A stretch of 64,000 bases of DNA from Gemmatimonadaceae bacterium. Lineage in GTDB: Bacteria > Gemmatimonadota > Gemmatimonadetes > Gemmatimonadales > Gemmatimonadaceae. Each line of letters opens with the position of its first letter. Within the stretch, counting starts at the first letter, position 1. The stretch is from NCBI GenBank assembly GCA_020852815.1, contig JADZAN010000019.1, positions 248,001 through 312,000 of the forward strand. Reading direction: 5' to 3'. A program made the position numbers and the translations under genes. The notes under the pieces are model-generated. The model saw nothing but the letters and a program-made list of their open reading frames with translations. It did no database searches and was not told where the DNA came from. Below are positions 20,347 to 34,081 of the stretch, one piece after another.

Positions 20347-20522
20347 ACGCGGCACGACACGGCTAGGTTTGAATCCTGAGTCACCGAGGAACCGCGTGGT
20401 ACACCCGGTGGCGTGTGGAACTCTCGTGAAACTGCTGCGTGCGTCACAGACACGAAAGGGGAGCTTCCCCTGAGACTGACCGCACCTGCCCGGTCACGCT
20501 TCTCGATAGGCACACTCGTCGC

Positions 20523-22640
20523 ATGCCACCCACTTCCGATGCTCCAATCGCGCACCTGACGCCCCGCATCGCCACGTTGTCCGGGGCGTCGCCCGCCCGC
20601 GTCATCCTCGCGCTCGCCCTCACGACGGCGCTGGCACTGGCGTCGGCAATCGCCTCTCCCCTCGTCGCGCAGCGTCCAAACGGCCCCACCTTCGCGGCGC
20701 AGCCCCATCTCACCGATCGCCGCGTCGTCGCGCGTCAGGTGCAACCCTTCCTCGGCGCCCGCGGCGTCCCGATCCTCGAACGTGACGGACTGCGCTTCAA
20801 GGACCTCGACCGCAACGGTGAAGTGGACCGGTACGAGGACTGGCGCCTCACCGCCGCGGCCCGCGCCCGCGATCTCGTCGCACGCATGTCGCTCGGCGAC
20901 AAGGCCGGGGCGATGATGCATGGCAACCTGCGAAGCGTTGGCCCCATGGGCGCGGTCGGCGTGGGGACCGAGGTCGACCTCGACGCCATGCGCGCCGTGA
21001 TTCGCGATGTGGGAATCACGCACGTGATCATGCGACTGGGCGGCGCTCCCGCCGACCTGGCGCGGCAGACCAACGCGGTGCAGGAACTGGCGGAGGGGAG
21101 CCGGCTCGGCATCCCGGTCACGATCAGCACCGACCCGCGCCATCACTTCCAGTACGTCGTGGGCGCCAGTGTGCAGACGGGGCAGTTTTCGCAGTGGCCG
21201 GAACCGTTAGGCCTGGCCGCACTGCGCGACCCCGCGATCACGAAGCGTTTCGCCGACATCGCGCGGCAGGAGTATCGCGCGGTGGGGATCCACATGACGC
21301 TCTCGCCGCAGGCCGACCTTGCCACCGAGCCGCGTTGGAGCCGCATCAACGGAACGTTTGGTGAAGATCCCGACCTCGCGCTTCGCCTGACGAGGGCCTA
21401 TGTCGAAGGCTTCCAGCACGGCGCGCGCGGCGTCGATTCCAGTGGCGTGGCCGCGGTGGTGAAGCATTGGGTCGGCTATGGCGCCGCACGGCTTGGCTAC
21501 GACTCGCACAACGTTTTTGGGCGCTACGCCGACATCGACGGCGCCGCGCTCGCCGTCCATGTCCGGCCGTTCCTCGGCGCCTTCGCCGCGGGAGTGGCCG
21601 GCGTCATGCCCACGTACTCCATCCTCGAAGGCGCCACGATCAACGGGCAGAGGGTGGAAGCGGTCGGCGCCGGCTTCAGCAAGCAGCTCGTCAACGACCT
21701 GTTGCGCCGGACGCACGGCTACCGGGGGATCGTTCTCTCCGACTGGGCGATTACCAGCGATTGCACCGAGCGGTGTCGCAACGGCGCCCCCGCCGGCGAG
21801 CGTCCGTCGTGGAGCGATGTGGGGATGCCGTGGGGCGTGGAGGACCTTCCCAAGGTCGACCGCTTCGTCAAGGCCGTGCGCGCCGGCATCGACCAGTTTG
21901 GGGGGACCGAGGAGGCGCCCCAACTGGTGGAAGCAGTGCGTAGCGGCAAGCTCACCGAGGCGCAGCTCGACGCCTCGGTCGTGCGTCTCATGGTGCAGAA
22001 GTTCCAGCTCGGCCTCTTCGAGAATCCGTACGTCGACGTCGAACGCGCACGGCGCGTGGTGGGGAGCAACGCCTTTCGCGGCGCCGGCCTCGACGCGCAG
22101 CGCAAGGCGCTCGTGGTGCTGGAGAACAAGGGAGCGCTCCTCCCGTTAGGGCGCACGGTCCGGCGCGTGTACTTGCACAACGTCGACCCCATGCTCGCCG
22201 CCAGCTACGGGTGGCGTGTGGTCAGCGATCCGGCACAGGCCGACGTGGCCATCATGCGCCTCGACGCCCCGTTCGAGACGTTGCACCCGGGGTGGGTCTT
22301 TGGCGCCATGCAGCACGAAGGCAATCTCGGCTTCAGGGACGGAGACGCCGACTACGGGCGCTTCAAGGCGGTGAGCGCTGTTGTCCCCACCATCGTCACC
22401 GTGTACCTCGACCGCCCGGCGATCCTGACCCCGCTCAAGGAGCGGGCACGTGTGCTGATTGGCAACTTCGGTGTGAGCGATGCGGCGCTGCTCGATGTGG
22501 TGGCCGGCAAGGCGCGGGCTCAGGGGAAGCTCCCCTTTGCCTTGCCGTCGTCCATGGCGAGCGTGGAGGCGCAACGCGGCGACACGCCGCACGACCTGAA
22601 ACGACCGCTGTACTCGTTTGGCGCGGGAATCGTGCGCTAG
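20523..22640 (+). CDS. Secreted glycoside hydrolase family 3 protein
   Basis: A 705-residue beta-glycosidase of family GH3. After a signal region (VILALALTTALALASAIASPLVAQ), a calcium-like DLDRNGEVDRYEDWR stretch precedes the TIM-barrel domain. Family marks are the ISTDPRHHF segment, AVVKHWVGYG and RGIVLSDWAITSD, in which Asp407 is the expected nucleophile. A C-terminal alpha/beta sandwich domain (KALVVLENKGALLPL) completes it. Likely substrates are beta-glucosides, unresolved. The start at 20523 was chosen over a longer frame because it directly precedes the signal peptide. It converges on the VOC gene. Confidence 0.9.
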   Translation: MPPTSDAPIAHLTPRIATLSGASPARVILALALTTALALASAIASPLVAQRPNGPTFAAQPHLTDRRVVARQVQPFLGARGVPILERDGLRFKDLDRNGEVDRYEDWRLTAAARARDLVARMSLGDKAGAMMHGNLRSVGPMGAVGVGTEVDLDAMRAVIRDVGITHVIMRLGGAPADLARQTNAVQELAEGSRLGIPVTISTDPRHHFQYVVGASVQTGQFSQWPEPLGLAALRDPAITKRFADIARQEYRAVGIHMTLSPQADLATEPRWSRINGTFGEDPDLALRLTRAYVEGFQHGARGVDSSGVAAVVKHWVGYGAARLGYDSHNVFGRYADIDGAALAVHVRPFLGAFAAGVAGVMPTYSILEGATINGQRVEAVGAGFSKQLVNDLLRRTHGYRGIVLSDWAITSDCTERCRNGAPAGERPSWSDVGMPWGVEDLPKVDRFVKAVRAGIDQFGGTEEAPQLVEAVRSGKLTEAQLDASVVRLMVQKFQLGLFENPYVDVERARRVVGSNAFRGAGLDAQRKALVVLENKGALLPLGRTVRRVYLHNVDPMLAASYGWRVVSDPAQADVAIMRLDAPFETLHPGWVFGAMQHEGNLGFRDGDADYGRFKAVSAVVPTIVTVYLDRPAILTPLKERARVLIGNFGVSDAALLDVVAGKARAQGKLPFALPSSMASVEAQRGDTPHDLKRPLYSFGAGIVR

Positions 22641-22682: not shown

Positions 22683-23714
22683 TCAGCGCGCCGCCGCCCT
22701 CAGCCGCAACGCCGTCCCCCACGGATCGCGTAGCTGCACCACCCCGGGCGCAACGTCGATCGCCGTGACGCCGCCACGCACCAGGCTCGCCTGCGCCGCG
22801 GCGACGTCGGCAGCGGTGGGGAGTTCGATGGTCCAGTGCAGGAGCTGTGCGTCGTCGTCCGCGGGCGCTCGCGCCCCCGCCCCGGCCCACGTGTTTGTCC
22901 CCAGGTGATGATGGTAGCCGCCCGCCCCGAGAAAGAGCGCCCCCGGGTAGCTCCACGCCATCACGTCGAACCCTAACGCGTCGGAGTAGAAGGCGCGAGC
23001 GATGGTCAGGTCGCCCACGTGAAGGTGCACGTGCCCGATCACCGTGCCGGCGGGGATCCCGCGCCACCGTTCGTCGCCAGCGGCCAGGAGCAATCCGTCG
23101 ACGTCGACGGGATCGGTCGCCAGCCGCAACTCGTGCCCGTTGCGGCGCCAGCTGTCGCGCGGGCGATCGGCGTACACCTCGATCCCGATGCCGTCCGGAT
23201 CGGAGAGGTAGAACGCCTCGCTCACCAGGTGGTCTCCCGCACCGGCCGGGACGCGCATGTCGGCCAGGTGGCGCACGAATCGCCCCAGCGCGGCGCGATC
23301 GGGGAGCAGGATCGCGAAATGGTAGATCCCCAGCAACCCGTGCCGTCCCGCAGCGCGCGTTCCAGCGCGCGCCGACAGCTCCACCAGTACGCGATCGTCA
23401 TCCAGCGGCGCCAGCGCCGCCGTGTCCCCCTCGCGCCCTAACACGCGAAAGCCTATCACAGACGTGTAGAATGCAAGGGCGCGATCGAGGTCGCTCACCT
23501 GCAGCCGCACCGCGCCCAGCCGGGTGGCGTCGGGCAGGCGGAACCCGGGCGGTGCCACCCCGTAGCCCGGGTCGAGCCCCGGCCGCGCGGCGCTCGCGGT
23601 GCCTGGGGGCGTGCCTGACGTCGTGCCTGACGTCGTGCCTGACGTCGTGCCTGACGTGGTGCCTGACGTGGTGCCTGACGTGGTGCCGGTGCGATCGTTC
23701 GGGGTCTCGTCCAT
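22683..23714 (-). CDS. VOC (glyoxalase/dioxygenase-fold) protein, CatE-like
   Basis: A 343-residue protein with two vicinal-oxygen-chelate modules, the arrangement of extradiol dioxygenases of the CatE type. Module one runs from RLGAVRLQVSDLDRALAFY through IYHFAILLPDRAALGRF to FYLSDPDGIGIEVYADRP. Module two runs from GHVHLHVGDLTIARAFY through GYHHHLGTNTW to LRDPWGTALRL. Metal-ligand His and Glu positions are present, so a metal-dependent dioxygenase or lyase is plausible. The N-terminus has an odd TTSG tetrapeptide repeated about six times, encoded by a 12-bp tandem repeat. The start has GGAG eight bases upstream. Confidence 0.85.
   Translation of the reverse strand: MDETPNDRTGTTSGTTSGTTSGTTSGTTSGTTSGTPPGTASAARPGLDPGYGVAPPGFRLPDATRLGAVRLQVSDLDRALAFYTSVIGFRVLGREGDTAALAPLDDDRVLVELSARAGTRAAGRHGLLGIYHFAILLPDRAALGRFVRHLADMRVPAGAGDHLVSEAFYLSDPDGIGIEVYADRPRDSWRRNGHELRLATDPVDVDGLLLAAGDERWRGIPAGTVIGHVHLHVGDLTIARAFYSDALGFDVMAWSYPGALFLGAGGYHHHLGTNTWAGAGARAPADDDAQLLHWTIELPTAADVAAAQASLVRGGVTAIDVAPGVVQLRDPWGTALRLRAAAR
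23611..23682. repeat. 12-bp tandem repeat in the VOC gene
   Basis: Six in-register copies of GTGCCTGACGTS lie inside the 5' end of the VOC protein gene and encode a TTSG repeat. Changes in copy number would keep the reading frame. Confidence 0.9.
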
Positions 23715-26367: not shown

Positions 26368-27798
26368 CTACGGCGTCGCGATCGTGCGGCGCGCCTGCTC
26401 CAGACGCACCCCCGCCCCATCGCGCACCCCCATGTACACCACGCCCCCCTTGCCGAAACCGGCAATGACACGCCCCGCGGGAACGGCCACGCGCTCCACC
26501 AGCGTCCCGTTGGCGTCGATGACGTCGTAGATCGGGCCGCCGTTCACGACGATCGACGTGCGCACCCACAAGTTGCCGTCCTGGTCGGCGCGCGCGGCGC
26601 CGGTGGTGAATGGCGGGGCGTAGTCGGGCAGCTCGTTAGGCTCGACGAAGGTGAGCGGCGGGAGCGTGAAGTTGCGGGGCGGTCCCCCCGTCTCGTCGCG
26701 CGCCCGCGCGTTGTCGCTCTGGCGCGGCGGCCCCCCCGGCGGCCCCCCTTCGAAGCGCATCACCATCACCGGCGCCCCGCCCCCCATCGCCCCGTCCATC
26801 CCCGGGATCTGCGGCATGCGCCCGGGGTTCTCCTTCATCTGCGCCATGAAATTGGCACGCACCTTCTCCATGGCCACGCGGGTGGAATCGAGGAAGGCGG
26901 CCTTGGCCGAGTCGTTGAGGTGGCGCCAGTCGAACGGAAGGCGTTCCGACGATGCCCGCGCGTCGTCGCCCTTGATCCAGTCGACGTGGTAGTCCATCCC
27001 GCGCACGATGGCCACGGCACCATTCGAGAGAACGGCCCAGTCATCGACCTTGGGGAGCGGATCGATGATCGGCGTCATCATCATCCGCCCCGACGTGTCG
27101 GTCCCCTGCTTCATCCTGATCTTCTGCGTCTTGATGAAGGCCACGGTGTCGAGCTTGCGCGTGGCGAGTTCGACGCGAACGATCGCCGCCGAGTCGGGGA
27201 TGTCGGGCATGCGGAACGCGGGGGCCCCCTGCCCGGGCGTTCCCCCCTGCCCGCCCTGTCCTCCCCGTCCTGCCGCCGCTCCGGGGCCTCCCGGGCCGCC
27301 GGGGCCAAAGCGCAACTGGAACGGCGCGCGATAGACGAGCCGCCCCTGCGCGTCGAAGCCGGGAATCCCGTTCTGGCCGGCGACGAGCGCTTGCGCGTCG
27401 TTAGGGCGCGGCACGCTCATCACCCGTCCGATCTTGCCCGACGGGTCGATGACGAGCATCGACATGGCCTGCGGGTCGACGAAGAGCGACGTGTCGCCCT
27501 TGTAAGTCAACAACCCGCCAAAGCGTCCCGAGTACGCATTTCCGGTGGCCGCCGTGGTGTCGGCAACGACGGTGTAGGTGGCAAGCGTCTTGTCGAACAG
27601 GAGGACGCGGCGCCCGATGGCGTCATTGATGAGGACGCGCCCATCGGAGAGCGCGCGGGCGGTCGACACCGCGCCGAGCAGTTCCGCGGACTTGGCCTCG
27701 ATGGCACCGAGTGCGCGCGGCGCGGGGGGCTTCGCCGGCGCCTGCGCGAAGGCCAGGCCCGGGGAGAGGAGGCAGAGGGCGGTAAGGACGCGAGGCAT
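26368..27798 (-). CDS. Secreted protein, probable beta-propeller, unknown function
   Basis: A 476-residue exported protein (signal LTALCLLSPGLAFAQ). Successive segments such as ARALSDGRVLINDAIGRRVLLFD, SLFVDPQAMSMLVIDPSG, DDWAVLSNGAVAIVRG, GNLWVRTS and GPIYDVIDANGTLVERV look like blades of an NHL/six-bladed beta-propeller. A Gly/Pro-rich low-complexity insert (FGPGGPGGPG region) interrupts the middle, and a second lies near GGPPGGPP. No catalytic motif is recognisable. Homologous segments without defined roles are common in bacteria with many secreted proteins, and a binding or scaffold role is inferred. The start at 27798 is the first Met before the signal peptide. Confidence 0.7.
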   Translation of the reverse strand: MPRVLTALCLLSPGLAFAQAPAKPPAPRALGAIEAKSAELLGAVSTARALSDGRVLINDAIGRRVLLFDKTLATYTVVADTTAATGNAYSGRFGGLLTYKGDTSLFVDPQAMSMLVIDPSGKIGRVMSVPRPNDAQALVAGQNGIPGFDAQGRLVYRAPFQLRFGPGGPGGPGAAAGRGGQGGQGGTPGQGAPAFRMPDIPDSAAIVRVELATRKLDTVAFIKTQKIRMKQGTDTSGRMMMTPIIDPLPKVDDWAVLSNGAVAIVRGMDYHVDWIKGDDARASSERLPFDWRHLNDSAKAAFLDSTRVAMEKVRANFMAQMKENPGRMPQIPGMDGAMGGGAPVMVMRFEGGPPGGPPRQSDNARARDETGGPPRNFTLPPLTFVEPNELPDYAPPFTTGAARADQDGNLWVRTSIVVNGGPIYDVIDANGTLVERVAVPAGRVIAGFGKGGVVYMGVRDGAGVRLEQARRTIATP

Positions 27799-27802
27799 GG
27801 GG

Positions 27803-27863
27803 AGCGGGACGGGAGACGGGGTACGGGAGACGGGAGACGGGAGACGGGAGACGGGAGACGGGA
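27803..27863. repeat. GGGAGAC heptamer microsatellite
   Basis: Roughly eight copies of GGGAGAC, two of them imperfect, lie upstream of the propeller-like gene. The same unit flanks the REP-like elements and reappears near 63.70-63.73 kb. Confidence 0.8.
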
Positions 27864-27943
27864 GTGCCGACGTCGCGGGGCGACGTCGGCGGGGCGTTAG
27901 GCGATACGCCAGGTGCAAGGGAGCAATGACTGTGCACGCGCGG

Positions 27944-30900
27944 TCAGCGAACGATCTGGATGGATTGGCCGCCACCACCGCCGCCCATCAGCATTGGGCC
28001 GCCGGCAAAGCCGGCGCCACCGCCGGAGCCCGCCGTCCCCGACCGAATTGACGCGAGATAGCGCGGATCGAGGTACGAGGCCACGAGCGTGGGGAGCTTG
28101 CGGCGTTGCTCGGCGCTGAGCAAGCCGCGCACGTCCCGGGCCACGCGCTGGAGCAGGTCGACGGTGGCGCGGCGCCCCTGGCGGTACATCCCGTACGCCT
28201 TGTCGCTGTCGTAGTGGTCGGGGAGCGACGCCAGTTGCTTGCTGATCGGCGTCCAGATGGAATCGGCGCGGATGAGGTACCAGCGGTTGAGCGTGGCCAG
28301 CGAGTCGGCCTGCGGCACCGTAAGCTGCAACGTGTCGGTCTGGCGCAGGATGTTGGCCAGCGGGTTGATAAAGCCGCCGCTCCCGTAGATCGCCTTGATG
28401 ATCTGCTCGTTCAGCTTCTGCCCGTCCTGCCGCCGCCCGAGGTTGAGCTGCTGCGTGAGCGTCTGGCGTTCGCGCGTGGGACCGATGTCGAAGCGGAGCA
28501 TCGCCGTCACGGTGACCGGGGTGCGGAAGGCGCTGAACTGCGGGTTGGTTGCGCCAAAGCGCCGGTTGACGTCGTACACGTAGCGCCCCGACGCCCGGTC
28601 GAAGCCGCGCACCGCGAGGAGCGTGGCATCGGGGAACGCGTTCTGCCCCCACCCCCGCAGGTTGTCATCCGAGTGCAGGAGGAGGTCGGCCGCGCCTAAC
28701 GGGTTGGAGACGTTGAACGAGAGCGTGGCGCGCTGCGGCATGCGCACCTTGATCGGGTTGAATGCGATGGAAAAGTTGGCCGAGTGGGTCCAGGGTCCCT
28801 GGCACGAGTTGCGCCCGGCCACCTGCCCGAGCTGCCCCGACAGGCAATCGCGCACGCGCGACGACGCGGTGGACAGCAGCGTCTGCATCGAGGCCGCCAG
28901 GTTTGCATCGGCGGCCGTGCGCGGGTCGTAGATGAAGGCGCGGTCGTTCGAGTAGCCGTCGCCGTTGATGTCACCCGCCACCAGCGGGGTGAACGGCGTC
29001 CCCGACCGCACGTTGCCGAACCAGCTGATGCGCACGAGATCGGCCGCGTTCCAGTACAGCGAGTATTGCACCTGGTGGCGCGAGTCGAAGTTGCTACGCG
29101 CCCACTCGACGCTGCGCGGGTCGCCCGCCGTGTTGTTGCCAAAGCCGCGCACCCGCTCCCGCACGTTGGAGAACACATACGACAGCGACCAGTTGTAGCG
29201 GGAGTTGTACGACAGCGGCGAGAACGACGCCCGCAGTTGCCGCGATTCGGAACGCAGGTCGGAGCGCTGCTCGGTCACACGGTTGAACAGCGTCGACACG
29301 CGCGCGTCACGCGCGGCAATCGCACCAGTCGCCGGGTCGATGCTGGTGGGAAGGACGTAGACCGGGCGCCCCGCCTCGTCCCCTAACGAGAAGCGCTGCG
29401 TGGCGAGGAAGTTGAGATCGACGAACCCCTGCTGGTTGAGGTTGAGCGAGTACGTCCCCTCGAGGTTCGCGTTGAAGCGGTTGCCAAGCACCGGGCCGCT
29501 CCACTGCAGGTTGCTGCGCACGGAGCGCGGCGCGTGGAAGTCCTCCCTGAACAGCGAGACGTTCGGCGCCGAGCTCGCGAAGACGGTCCCCGTCGTCCCG
29601 TCGGCGCACTCGGCGGGAATGGCCCCCTGCCCGGCGAGGTACTGCGCCCACTGCGCGTTGGGAACGGCGAGTCCGGAGCAGTTCACCAGCTGCACGCCGC
29701 TGGCAAGCCCGGTGTTGTCGAGCGCCGAGCCGATGAGCTGCGCGCCGGGCGTCCCCTGGAAGATCCCCACGCCGCCGCGCACCGTGGCGCGCGGGCCGCG
29801 GAACGCCCCCTCGAAGGCGCCCACCTGCGCCGCCTGCCCATAGCTCCACGAGAAGCCGATGCGCGGCGAGACGTACACCCCGTTGGGGACCTCGTCGTTG
29901 CGCACGCCGAACGTCGCCTCGACCGCGTCGTTCTCCCGCGGGCGCGTCCCGAAGGCGTTGCCGTCCACGCGCACCCCGTACTGCAGCTGCAGGCGCGGCG
30001 TGGCGCGGTACGAGTCGCCTAACGCCATCGCCGCCGTGACCTGGTTGCCCGACCGGATGCGCCGTCCCAGCTGGCGCGAGAACGACAGGGCGCGCCCCGC
30101 CTCGAGGTCGGCCAGCGAGTTGTAGCTGAATGACCCCAGCAGGTTGTTGCTCTGGTCGACGTCGAAGTCGTCGCGGCGCAATTCGGTCGAGAGCTTCACC
30201 CGATGCTTGTTGTCGTTGCTGAACCAGGAGATCTGGTTGGAGAGGTTGATTCCCGTCGTCGTCGACGTGTTGTTGAGGAAAGTGCTCCCCCCGAACTGCA
30301 CCGACTTCACCGCGGTCGTCCCGTCGTCCAGCACCGACGTGATGCGCACGCTCCCGCTGGGCACCGACAGGAAGGGGGACGACACATTGCGCGTGCGGTT
30401 GATGCCAAGCGCAGTCTCGCTCAGCGCCCCGAACGAGAAGTAGGTGGAATGCCGCGCCTGCACGCCGCCGTTGAAGCTGGTGCGCGTCCCCGAGTGCGCG
30501 GGAAACTCGGTCACCTGACCGCTCACCGGATCGAGGCGGTTCCACGACAGGTTGCTGCTGAACGAGAACGCCGAGCCGGCCCGTGACGACGGTGGCGAGA
30601 GGTCGATGCCGCCGAACAGCACCCCCTGGTCACTCAGCCGGCTGGAGGGAATTCCCCCCGCCGTGGAGGGAATCGACTGCGTCGAGAGAATCGAGAGGAG
30701 GCGCGTGACCGAGTCGGGCGAGATCCCCGACGCCTCGAGCCCGATGGGCGAGGTGTTCAGCAGCGTCTGCAGGTCGTTCGAGCGACGCCCCAGCTGGTAG
30801 GCCAGGTTGTAGAACGCGGCGTTGTACTTGAGCGGCCCCGAAACGAGTCCGCCCAGCGAGGCGTTGGAGTACTGCTGCCCCAGCGCGCTCGCCGCGGGGT

Positions 30901-31735
30901 CCGTCCACTGCAGCGCGGGCGAATCCAGGTTGAGCGAGTTGGTGCGCAGGATGAAGTTGGTCCCCGAGCGCGTGCGCAGGTTCAGGTTCCCGCCGCTGAA
31001 GCCACCGCGCGACACGTCATAGGGCGACGAGTTGAGCGCCGCCGACACCATCGCGTCGCGCGGCAGGTCGGAGCCGGAGAAGTTGAGGCCATTGAGCGTG
31101 GTGCTGTTCTGGTCGGCGCCGAGCCCCAACACGGAAAAGCCGGACGGATCACCATCCTGTCCCGGGACGTAGAGCACCCCCGGCGTGTTGGCTGCCATCG
31201 CCGCCAGATCGCCCTGCTGCGTGGGATCCAGGTTGTTGGGATTCACCACGCGCTCGGTTCCCGCCACGTCTTGCGCCTGGTCGTTGCGGGTCACGCGATT
31301 CCGGTTCGCCGTGACGCGCACCTCGTCGAGCGTCGTCGTGGTGCGCGAGAGCTGCGCGTCGGCCACCAGGATGTCCTCGTCGGCCACCCGCTTGATCTCG
31401 AACCGGCGCGGGGCGAAGCCGATCGAACGGAAGGCGACGAAATAGTCGCCATCGCCCCCCGGAAAGGTCACCATGAAACGCCCGTTGCGATCGGTCAGCG
31501 CATTGCGACTGACGGCGCCCGAGAGCGTCGTCACCGTCACCTGCACGCCCGGCAGCGGCTCGCGATCGGGGCCGGTCACGCGCCCGCGGATGATGTCGAC
31601 CGTCTGCGCCGCAGCGGCCAGCAGCGGCAGGGAGCACAGCACGATCGCCAACGTCACGACGCGACAGAACGCGCCAACGAGGCTCCCGGCGCGCGAGATT
31701 CGGGGGGACACGCGGTATGGACGCAGGTGAGGCAT
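27944..31735 (-). CDS. TonB-dependent receptor with N-terminal regulatory and C-terminal helical domains
   Basis: A 1263-residue outer-membrane receptor. A signal peptide (VVTLAIVLCSLPLLAAAAQ) is followed by a carboxypeptidase-regulatory-like domain (IIRGRVTGPDREPLPGVQVTV). The plug region contains DEVRVTANR and GADQNSTTLNGLNFSGSDLPRD, then a long beta-barrel follows, as in Oar/SusC-like receptors. The barrel seems to end near TVTAMLRFDIGPTRER. About 170 further residues are predicted helical, with two LTxxQ-like motifs (LTVPQ, LSAEQ), reminiscent of Spy/CpxP periplasmic proteins, and a Gly-rich tail. Imported substrates are unknown; the GH97 gene upstream suggests glycans. The start at 31735 has GGAG very close. 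Confidence 0.88.
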   Translation of the reverse strand: MPHLRPYRVSPRISRAGSLVGAFCRVVTLAIVLCSLPLLAAAAQTVDIIRGRVTGPDREPLPGVQVTVTTLSGAVSRNALTDRNGRFMVTFPGGDGDYFVAFRSIGFAPRRFEIKRVADEDILVADAQLSRTTTTLDEVRVTANRNRVTRNDQAQDVAGTERVVNPNNLDPTQQGDLAAMAANTPGVLYVPGQDGDPSGFSVLGLGADQNSTTLNGLNFSGSDLPRDAMVSAALNSSPYDVSRGGFSGGNLNLRTRSGTNFILRTNSLNLDSPALQWTDPAASALGQQYSNASLGGLVSGPLKYNAAFYNLAYQLGRRSNDLQTLLNTSPIGLEASGISPDSVTRLLSILSTQSIPSTAGGIPSSRLSDQGVLFGGIDLSPPSSRAGSAFSFSSNLSWNRLDPVSGQVTEFPAHSGTRTSFNGGVQARHSTYFSFGALSETALGINRTRNVSSPFLSVPSGSVRITSVLDDGTTAVKSVQFGGSTFLNNTSTTTGINLSNQISWFSNDNKHRVKLSTELRRDDFDVDQSNNLLGSFSYNSLADLEAGRALSFSRQLGRRIRSGNQVTAAMALGDSYRATPRLQLQYGVRVDGNAFGTRPRENDAVEATFGVRNDEVPNGVYVSPRIGFSWSYGQAAQVGAFEGAFRGPRATVRGGVGIFQGTPGAQLIGSALDNTGLASGVQLVNCSGLAVPNAQWAQYLAGQGAIPAECADGTTGTVFASSAPNVSLFREDFHAPRSVRSNLQWSGPVLGNRFNANLEGTYSLNLNQQGFVDLNFLATQRFSLGDEAGRPVYVLPTSIDPATGAIAARDARVSTLFNRVTEQRSDLRSESRQLRASFSPLSYNSRYNWSLSYVFSNVRERVRGFGNNTAGDPRSVEWARSNFDSRHQVQYSLYWNAADLVRISWFGNVRSGTPFTPLVAGDINGDGYSNDRAFIYDPRTAADANLAASMQTLLSTASSRVRDCLSGQLGQVAGRNSCQGPWTHSANFSIAFNPIKVRMPQRATLSFNVSNPLGAADLLLHSDDNLRGWGQNAFPDATLLAVRGFDRASGRYVYDVNRRFGATNPQFSAFRTPVTVTAMLRFDIGPTRERQTLTQQLNLGRRQDGQKLNEQIIKAIYGSGGFINPLANILRQTDTLQLTVPQADSLATLNRWYLIRADSIWTPISKQLASLPDHYDSDKAYGMYRQGRRATVDLLQRVARDVRGLLSAEQRRKLPTLVASYLDPRYLASIRSGTAGSGGGAGFAGGPMLMGGGGGGQSIQIVR

Positions 31736-32011: not shown

Positions 32012-34081
32012 CTATCTCGGGCGAATGCGGACGGCGGCGCCTCCGCCGGGGGCAAGGACGAGGTGCAACCGGTCCCCCGCCCCCACCTCACGCGACGAGA
32101 TCACAACCGGGAGCGGGTTGGTGAGCCAGTGTGCTCCCGGGCCGTCGGTATACGACTCGGCGACGTACGCCTTCCCGGGGGTGAGGAAGTCGAGCTCGAT
32201 GTCGACGACGCGCGCGTGTTCGTCGGTGATTGCCCCCACGAACCACTCGTCGCGCCCCCGGGCCTTGCGCGCAACCACGACCGAGTCGCCGATCGCGCCG
32301 CCCAGGACGCGCGTCACCTCCCAGTCGGTCGCCAGGTCGCGAATGAACTGGAAGGCCGGCTGATTGGCGTAGCTCTCGATGATGTCGGCGGCCATGTGCA
32401 CCGGCGAGTAGAGCACGACATAGTCCGCCAGCTGCTTGGCCAGCGTGGTGCGCACGCGCGGCTGGTCCGGGGTGCGCGCCGTGCCTGACGAGCCGGCAAG
32501 GAGGATGTCGAACACACCCGGCGTGTAGTCCATCGGCCCCGCCAGGAGGCGCGTGAAGAAGAGGATCGTCTCGTGTTCCGGCGGGTTGCCGCCGTCGGGC
32601 CCCCCGGCGTTGTACTCCTGTCCGCGCCCCCCCTCGCGGGAGAGCATGTTGGGCCAGGTGCGCCGCTCGCCGGTGTCCATGATCGGCTCGTGCGCGTTGA
32701 CGGTGATGCCGTACTTTGCCGCCGTCTCGATCACCTTGCGGTGGTGTCGCACCATGAACTGCCCCGTGTGCGCATGCCCCTCGGCGGTGCGGTCGTTCAC
32801 GTAGCCCGTCTTGATGGCGCGGATACCGAGGGAGCGATATAGCGCAAACGCCGAGTCGAGCTGCCGTTCGTAGTTGGCGATTCCCATCGCCGTCTCGTTA
32901 TGCACGATGAGCGAGACGCCCTTGGACTTCGCGTACCGGGCAACTGCGGACAAATCGTAGTCGGGATAGCCGCGGGTAAACGAGAAGTGCCGCCCGAAGC
33001 TCCCGATCCAGTCACCATCCCACCCCACGTTCCACCCTTCCACCAGCGTCCCGCCCAGGTGGTTCGCCGCCGCAAAGTCGATGTAGCGCCTGGCGTTCTC
33101 CGTGGTCGCGCCGTGCGTGGGCCCCGAATGCCAGCTGTACTTCCCGGCGTGCATCCCCCACCAGATCCCGTTGTACGTCATGGGGGTGATCCAGCGCGTG
33201 TCGGCAATGCGTGACGGCGCATTGAGGTTGAGCCCCAGCACCGACGGGACGAGCGCCGCCGGTGTGTCCGCCAGCTGCACCGTGCGCCACGGCGTCACGA
33301 ACGGGGTGCGCCCGCGCACCTTCACACCGTCGCTCCACGGCGCCAGCGCGGGGCGAAGCGTCCGCTCCCCTACCCGCGCCAGGTCCATCGCCGCGTAGTC
33401 CTCGAGCGCTGCCTCGTGCAGCACCACCACCGGGCCCCCCTGCATCTCCATCGTGAGCGGCGTGCGCACCGAGTCCAGCATGCTGAGCGGCGACGACGCA
33501 TACAGGAACTCGTAGCGGTCCATCGCCTTGCGGTTGGACGGAATCCACCACGCCTTCGCGTTGTCGGCCATCGCGAACTCGGTCAGCTCGTCGGCGATGC
33601 GGAACGCGCCAAGGTTGGGTTGCTTGGGGAGTTCATAGCGGAAGGCGACGCCGTCATCGAAGGCGCGGAAGGCAACCACGAAGCTTCGCGCGAGCGGGCG
33701 CCGCTCGGCGACTCGCACGCGCAACTCGTTATGGTGATCGCGGACCTGCATCACCTCGCCCCACGGCTGCGCCCACGTGGTGTCGACCGAAGCGCGCGCC
33801 GAATCGACGAGCCGCAGGTTGCCGCCCAGCGCCGGTGCACCGCGAAAGGCGAAGCCAAGTCGCGAGGGGAGGATCACTTGGCGAGCGTCGCGGGCAACGG
33901 CGTAGGTGATGCGCCCGCCCTGGAGTTCGACCGTGACAACGTTGCGGCCGTCGGGAGAGGCGAGGCGAATCGGAGCCTGCGCGTGCACCGCTGGTCCTGT
34001 CAGCAGGCACGTGATGGCGACGAGTGATGCGAGGGCACGACGCCCACCGCGATCGGGCTGCAACTCGCGGCCACCGCTCAT
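32012..34081 (-). CDS. Secreted glycoside hydrolase family 97 protein (SusB-like)
   Basis: A 689-residue GH97 enzyme with a signal peptide (ALASLVAITCLLTGPAVHAQ), an N-terminal beta-sandwich domain (PDGRNVVTVELQGGRITYAV), the TIM barrel and a C-terminal sheet domain. The catalytic region shows GIRAIKTGYVNDR and ITVNAHEPIMDTGERRTWPN. The KTGY stretch, with no Asp at the retaining-nucleophile position, resembles the inverting alpha-glucosidase branch typified by SusB. It therefore probably cleaves alpha-glucosides; this is inferred. Its ATG overlaps the stop of a cytochrome-like fragment (ATGA). The TonB receptor gene follows 276 bp downstream on the same strand, a pairing reminiscent of starch-utilisation loci but without SusD. 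Confidence 0.9.
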   Translation of the reverse strand: MSGGRELQPDRGGRRALASLVAITCLLTGPAVHAQAPIRLASPDGRNVVTVELQGGRITYAVARDARQVILPSRLGFAFRGAPALGGNLRLVDSARASVDTTWAQPWGEVMQVRDHHNELRVRVAERRPLARSFVVAFRAFDDGVAFRYELPKQPNLGAFRIADELTEFAMADNAKAWWIPSNRKAMDRYEFLYASSPLSMLDSVRTPLTMEMQGGPVVVLHEAALEDYAAMDLARVGERTLRPALAPWSDGVKVRGRTPFVTPWRTVQLADTPAALVPSVLGLNLNAPSRIADTRWITPMTYNGIWWGMHAGKYSWHSGPTHGATTENARRYIDFAAANHLGGTLVEGWNVGWDGDWIGSFGRHFSFTRGYPDYDLSAVARYAKSKGVSLIVHNETAMGIANYERQLDSAFALYRSLGIRAIKTGYVNDRTAEGHAHTGQFMVRHHRKVIETAAKYGITVNAHEPIMDTGERRTWPNMLSREGGRGQEYNAGGPDGGNPPEHETILFFTRLLAGPMDYTPGVFDILLAGSSGTARTPDQPRVRTTLAKQLADYVVLYSPVHMAADIIESYANQPAFQFIRDLATDWEVTRVLGGAIGDSVVVARKARGRDEWFVGAITDEHARVVDIELDFLTPGKAYVAESYTDGPGAHWLTNPLPVVISSREVGAGDRLHLVLAPGGGAAVRIRPR

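Follow-up and report, generated by a model that had tools for sequence, protein, structure and literature searches.

A predicted helical domain, apparently related to LTXXQ proteins, behind the barrel of a TonB-dependent receptor in Gemmatimonadaceae

A receptor gene of a Gemmatimonadaceae bacterium (assembly GCA_020852815.1, contig JADZAN010000019.1) encodes an Oar-type TonB-dependent transporter that continues for 180 residues beyond the last strand of its outer-membrane barrel. The gene lies in a stretch of 64,000 nucleotides (positions 248,001 to 312,000 of the contig), which was analysed as a whole and is referred to here as the window. The fusion between the receptor and this extension, the tail, is well supported as real. 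The tail is predicted with high confidence to form a helical domain, and profile comparisons support its homology to the LTXXQ (Spy/CpxP) superfamily.

The tail had been noticed in an original prediction, made from the sequence alone. Three observations go beyond that prediction: the tailed receptors occupy one side of a receptor tree, a paralogous receptor in the same genome also carries a tail, and the next gene downstream, which encodes a propeller-like protein, is a constant neighbour. We tentatively prefer to read the tail as a clamp that is tethered to the receptor, faces the periplasm and works together with this propeller-like protein.

Architecture of the receptor and its tail

The features discussed are as follows, with coordinates in the window:

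27944..31735, reverse strand: Oar-type TonB-dependent receptor with a C-terminal LTXXQ-related tail, 1263 amino acids (P0001); ATG at 31735, stop codon ending at 27944.
31349..31591, reverse strand: CarboxypepD_reg domain, residues 49-129; PF13620 at 49.4 bits against a cut-off of 32.3.
31307..31330, reverse strand: TonB-box-like stretch LDEVRVTA, residues 136-143; putative, from its likeness to the TonB-box consensus.
28487..28516, reverse strand: last barrel strand, residues 1074-1083 (VTVTAMLRFD); AlphaFold2 model of plug, barrel and tail, model residues 952-961.
28034..28369, reverse strand: predicted helical, LTXXQ-related core of the tail, residues 1123-1234; AlphaFold2, and hhalign to LTXXQ proteins.
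28310..28324, reverse strand: first LTxxQ motif, LTVPQ, residues 1138-1142; motif position, glutamine in 66/66 tails.
28106..28120, reverse strand: second LTxxQ motif, LSAEQ, residues 1206-1210; motif position, glutamine in 66/66 tails.
27947..28033, reverse strand: Gly/Met-rich end, predicted to be disordered, with the strand-like last peptide QSIQIVR, residues 1235-1263; predicted local distance difference test (pLDDT) below 50.
26368..27798, reverse strand: propeller-like protein, 476 amino acids, a probably secreted product of the next downstream gene; a homologue follows the receptor at 77 of 79 loci.

The assignment to the Oar-type TonB-dependent transporters is confirmed. Receptor residues 395-991 match the barrel family PF25183 above the Pfam cut-off, and the Plug score of 23.2 bits falls just under its cut-off of 23.9. 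In a Foldseek comparison with the PDB, the receptor model retrieves TonB-dependent receptors such as YddB (E 8.6e-19), FusA (E 4.9e-18) and PfeA, with 165 matches at E<=0.001. The plug-barrel-tail model, which covers residues 123-1263 and was built with AlphaFold2 from 57 sequences, contains only helices and a disordered end past residues 1074-1083, and 180 residues therefore lie beyond the last strand. This bears out the original estimate of about 170.

A separate AlphaFold2 model of the last 229 receptor residues (66 sequences) contains two long helices, at model positions 106-135 and 143-171 (protein residues 1140-1169 and 1177-1205), which are flanked by shorter ones. Blocks of the helical core mostly have pLDDT above 90 in this tail model and about 72-90 in the longer one, while the last ~29 residues stay below 50 in both. 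The structure prediction that had been proposed as a check thus gave helices instead of strands for the core, but disorder for the final ~29 residues. The possibilities that the tail consists of further barrel strands or of pure disorder were accordingly dropped. The Gly-rich end that had been described was also found, as the Gly/Met-rich residues 1235-1263.

Both of the LTxxQ-like motifs named in the original prediction are present, at residues 1138 and 1206. The first opens the first long helix and the second lies just past the second long helix, which places both at the same end of the hairpin. Their glutamines are conserved in all 66 aligned non-redundant tails; the fuller pattern L[TS]xxQ occurs at the first motif in 64/66, and [LIM][TS]xxQ at the second in 62/66. 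Taken alone, the pair says little, because two or more L[TS]xxQ motifs arose by chance in 387 of 20,000 shuffles of the tail (1.9%). It is conservation across relatives, and not the motif pair alone, that leads us to accept the tail as a real domain.

This conservation is comparable to that of the barrel: among 57 sequences, mean pairwise identity is 0.58 for the tail core, 0.56 for the barrel and 0.40 for the Gly-rich end. The 66 tails share 21 invariant columns, including Asn-Pro, Gln and Trp positions, and the hairpin is preceded by a conserved NP-x-IL-x-x-DTL and followed by LDxRYLxSIRSGT. The first ~158 residues past the last strand carry a positive net charge in 66/66 sequences (+1 to +11). 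One Met column is conserved (41/66), and in none of the columns of the 66 tails does His or Cys reach 50%. According to loose, potentially overlapping patterns, the receptor ending is strand-like in 48/66 and RGG-like in 14/66.

Kinship with LTXXQ proteins and distribution of the tail

The proposal of a Spy/CpxP-like domain stands as a matter of profile homology. A paralogous receptor in the same genome (G000:C22) has a tail that passes PF07813, with 37.7 bits against a cut-off of 24.3. When window-type tails were aligned by hhalign with 15 paralogue-group tails, which had been chosen as PF07813 matches above cut-off in receptor-length frames, the profiles matched with P 97.4 and E 1.5e-11, and both motifs fell in register. 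The tail core was also compared with 22 LTXXQ proteins, comprising 20 from shorter frames of the phylum (picked by PF07813) together with E. coli Spy and CpxP, and gave P 91.5 and a score of 43.6. In the latter comparison, the maximum score among 100 column shuffles was 20.5, and the reversed profile reached 22.7. For the paralogue and 22-protein profiles, respectively, P was at most 2.2 and 3.7 in the shuffles (100 each) and 2.8 and 7.5 in the reversed controls, against real values of 97.3 and 91.5. Since the profile scores stand far above the shuffled and reversed controls, they support homology between the tail and the LTXXQ superfamily.

Elsewhere in the genome, a small stand-alone LTXXQ-like protein with an N-terminal membrane-like segment is encoded at L003 (G000:C2:361429-361785). 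The open reading frame before it has a membrane-like segment and looks anti-sigma-like by eye, an arrangement that resembles that of CnrX.

In the survey of the phylum that had been suggested for this extension, a search with one protein as the query matched tails in 46 of the 150 genomes at E<=0.01, in some cases weakly. By hand count, these comprise 42 of the 53 genomes of the same family (the window's own included) and 4 of the other 97, where every match is weak. At E<=5e-27, 39 of the 53 same-family genomes retain a match. A tail profile search matched 146 of 395 genomes. Strong matches fall nearly all within the window's own family, with few outside it (for example, G345 and G349).

Gene context was compared across 79 loci, representing the best 80 of 107 contig stretches confirmed with one peptide pattern of the window's tail type. 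All come from records named for the Gemmatimonadota or members of this phylum, except L125, L137 and L143. L143 is titled only as bacterium, and L125 and L137 belong to one bin, HRS-HS12-bin-7, labelled Candidatus Kuenenia stuttgartiensis, which is perhaps mislabelled or mixed. In 79/79 loci, the tail runs upstream into a receptor frame for at least 95 residues, ten of the frames being cut by the contig start and those of L084 and L090 having a stop 535 and 633 residues upstream, respectively.

A separate survey covered PF25183 receptors in 15 genomes, with 14 loci lacking a receptor match at E 1e-3 set aside. The six complete receptors from outside the window's genome that strongly resemble the window's (L212, L222, L225, L228, L229 and L230) have a tail that is LTXXQ-like by eye; of two further strong resemblers, one is cut by the end of its contig and the other is a fragment. 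Another 17 receptors with weaker resemblance, including one from the window's own genome, stop at or near the last strand.

In a tree of 55 receptors, one branch separates the 38 tailed from the 17 tail-less sequences, with a Shimodaira–Hasegawa-like approximate likelihood ratio test (SH-aLRT) value of 100. The tree is a quick, unrooted one with no bootstrap, from which L239, L231 and L209 were left out, and most of its paralogue-type rows had been chosen for having a tail. The simplest reading is a single gain of the tail, and the best explanation places the origin of the fusion in an ancestor belonging to the Gemmatimonadota. A literature search, with poor coverage of subscription papers and preprints, returned no description of such a receptor-LTXXQ fusion, an absence that carries little weight.

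The downstream propeller-like gene

The gene that follows the receptor starts after a gap of 145 bases, in which no terminator-like site was found. The gap (27799-27943) holds short tandem repeats of GTCTCCC type. A homologue of the propeller-like protein lies downstream on the same strand in 77/79 loci; its start is no more than 400 bases past the receptor's stop codon in 76 of them and 1.8 kilobases (kb) past it in L108. At the two loci that lack it, L091 and L135, the contigs end 149 and 78 bases past the receptor. The window's branch thus carries the gene wherever it is visible, and for this reason the propeller-like protein is the most likely partner or client of the tail.

No propeller-like gene was found at the 21 distinct paralogue-type loci (22 entries, of which L169 and L202 are the same locus), the two sister-type loci or the 24 other receptor loci, mostly within ~1-2 kb beyond the receptor; six of these 24 (L204, L205, L206, L217, L219 and L220) were classed as tail-less without inspection of the tail. 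A hand count of 52 genomes, in which strong matches were those with E<1e-40 (tail) and E<1e-100 (propeller), gave 32 with both, 1 with the tail only, 0 with the propeller only and 19 with neither, several of the last having weaker matches. The tail-only genome, G024, has a short frame near a contig start.

The propeller-like protein is probably secreted, judging by sequence pattern: its start is signal-peptide-like, with AxA within residues 16-75 in 31/34 relatives, and a lipobox-like pattern occurs in 1/34. It matches no Pfam family above cut-off. There is a Hyd_WA match far below cut-off and one SGL match among the 34 relatives, and these weak matches are the basis of its provisional name. 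A PDB sequence search with its profile gave 0 matches. At L239 (G143:C26:141000-153000), a receptor with a window-type tail is followed by five tandem propeller-like genes.

Other conserved neighbours were sought among frames of at least 120 amino acids in flanks of up to 6 kb. The next clusters occur in only 14 and 7 of the 79 loci, and the 14-locus cluster consists entirely of opposite-strand frames, which are perhaps shadows. The receptor locus of the window is flanked by two glycoside hydrolase genes that look GH97-like (32012-34081) and GH3-like (20439-22640). In the flanks examined of the 79 relatives, no homologue of either appears at E<=1e-10, and the GH97-like upstream gene was rejected as a functional partner on this ground. 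The window also contains, at 22683-23714, an open reading frame of VOC/dioxygenase-like appearance, which starts with a (TTSG)n repeat.

Possible function and known systems

By the established topology of outer-membrane proteins, whatever follows the barrel at the C-terminus lies in the periplasm. This would place the tail on the periplasmic side, where it is best read as a Spy-type clamp. The tethered helical hairpin would act as a small clamp, or holdase, where the barrel opens into the periplasm. There it might keep its propeller-like partner beside the TonB-driven plug, or else some unfolded protein or peptide also handled by this partner, so that the handling of the passenger and its transport would take place at one site. 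Within the window's branch, the receptor would act with the probably secreted propeller-like protein from the next gene. Secretion of this partner, its binding to the receptor, a chaperone-like action and the direction of transport are parts of the proposal that we infer.

A precedent exists, by analogy, for the idea that Oar-type receptors can serve protein secretion. According to PMC6434023, Oar of Myxococcus is required for the secretion of PopC, and co-expression with Oar in E. coli made PopC more soluble; the same source states that passage through the Oar barrel was not shown.

Several observations weigh against the preferred reading. The window tail has no PF07813 match of its own in Pfam, and among the 66 sequences (the tail and 65 relatives) only 5 touch this family, weakly, with a best E of 0.015; by sequence, formal membership in PF07813 is thus not supported. 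A single-sequence search with the window tail reaches the paralogue's tail in its own genome only at E 0.047, and the tie between the two consequently rests on profiles. In the fold searches, neither Spy nor CpxP is among the matches listed (the best 50 of 59 Foldseek rows, best E 1.1, and 50 VIA rows), for which reason a proof by fold was dropped; the matches listed represent common helical arrangements, with Z up to 7.4, and a PDB sequence search with the tail profile gave 0 matches. G040, a genome of the same genus, has a paralogue-type tail and no match to the window's type. Finally, no propeller-like neighbour accompanies the other tailed receptors within the flanks that were examined, so the propeller-like protein cannot be the general client of the tail.

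This last point leads to the alternative that the tail is a tethered holdase for transporter passengers in general, whether imported peptides or exported protein, while the propeller-like protein works at another place, for example as an enzyme of the cell surface or the periplasm. Paralogues with a tail and no such neighbour fit this explanation, as does the protein-secretion precedent of the Oar type (PMC6434023). It would nevertheless leave aside that, in the window's branch, no neighbour other than the propeller-like gene is widely conserved and that this gene is missing just at two contig ends among 79 loci, and we regard it as possible, though unlikely.

A more elaborate form of the clamp proposal is rather less likely again. 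It envisages a two-gene, TonB-powered protein-handling machine, in which the barrel would carry the periplasmic Spy-type clamp, and the strand-like C-terminal peptide would dock to a strand in the Gly-rich loop of the propeller-like protein; the latter would then be exported, be displayed or act as a gate. The receptor usually ends in a strand-like peptide flanked by Gly (QTIIIR type), and the propeller's Gly-rich loop often holds a similar stretch (PQVVMRFE type). With strand motifs scored by a beta-propensity window in 68 parsed loci (L068-L146; 10 of 78 propellers had a loop that could not be parsed), both are high in 52, both low in 11 and discordant in 4 and 1 (Spearman 0.61). A stricter loop threshold gave 45 with both, 11 with the C-terminal motif only, 1 with the loop only and 11 with neither. 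This covariation is not significant, because the thresholds were chosen with the data already in view and the tree provides no more than 3-4 independent pairs, of which about 2 are concordant and 0 opposite. It may have its source in a shared drift towards RGG-rich composition. At L239, the receptor end is RGG-like, and three parsable propeller loops are also without a clear strand motif.

The tail could instead serve the receptor itself, as an intramolecular chaperone that helps the large barrel on its way through the periplasm and in its folding. Spy-type domains work as chaperones in the periplasm, and in the E. coli record spy is annotated as an ATP-independent one. Oar-type receptors without a tail, in this genome and elsewhere in the phylum, nevertheless manage without it, and the neighbouring gene would go unexplained, which makes this an improbable account.

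Still less probable is a sensor that reports envelope stress or metal to a regulator, in the manner of CpxP or CnrX, as related stand-alone LTXXQ proteins do elsewhere. The original prediction had raised envelope-stress sensing, and this suggestion was not supported: apart from the propeller-like gene, the flanks of the 79 loci hold no conserved neighbour of at least 120 amino acids, a size limit at which shorter regulators would be missed, and neither His nor Cys is conserved at 50% in any column of the 66 tails. Both absences make sensor readings weak. An inert extension or structural spacer without a binding role, which the disordered and variable last ~29 residues might suggest, is scarcely credible for a helical core that is conserved like the barrel and has 21 invariant columns in 66 sequences.

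If the clamp works as we propose, a chaperone would be built into an energised outer-membrane transporter. The way in which TonB-dependent proteins deal with unfolded polypeptides in the periplasm, a question brought up by the link between Oar and PopC secretion, would then be open to direct test. An unstudied group of receptors, from a phylum of which few members are in culture, would also gain a testable function and a partner gene.

Several known systems share parts of this architecture. The metal sensors CnrX and ZraP likewise have a helical LTXXQ-like domain in the periplasm, whereas the window tail lacks conserved His or Cys and has no regulator among its conserved neighbours of at least 120 amino acids. 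OmpA-type proteins also consist of a barrel followed by a C-terminal periplasmic domain. In OmpA, however, the barrel is small and the C-terminal domain binds peptidoglycan, while the window protein combines a TonB-dependent barrel with an LTXXQ-like domain. Spy/CpxP proteins of PF07813 have two LTxxQ motifs that bracket a helical hairpin and are related to the window tail by profile; the tail differs in being fused behind an outer-membrane barrel and in having extra conserved parts on both sides, without a PF07813 match of its own. The closest likeness in the receptor part is to Oar of Myxococcus xanthus, which has a CarboxypepD_reg (PF13620) N-terminal extension, a plug and a large barrel, and for which the available part of the account describes no comparable C-terminal extension (PMC6434023). 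To this arrangement, the window receptor adds a C-terminal domain of ~180 residues, predicted to be helical, and a propeller-like neighbour gene.

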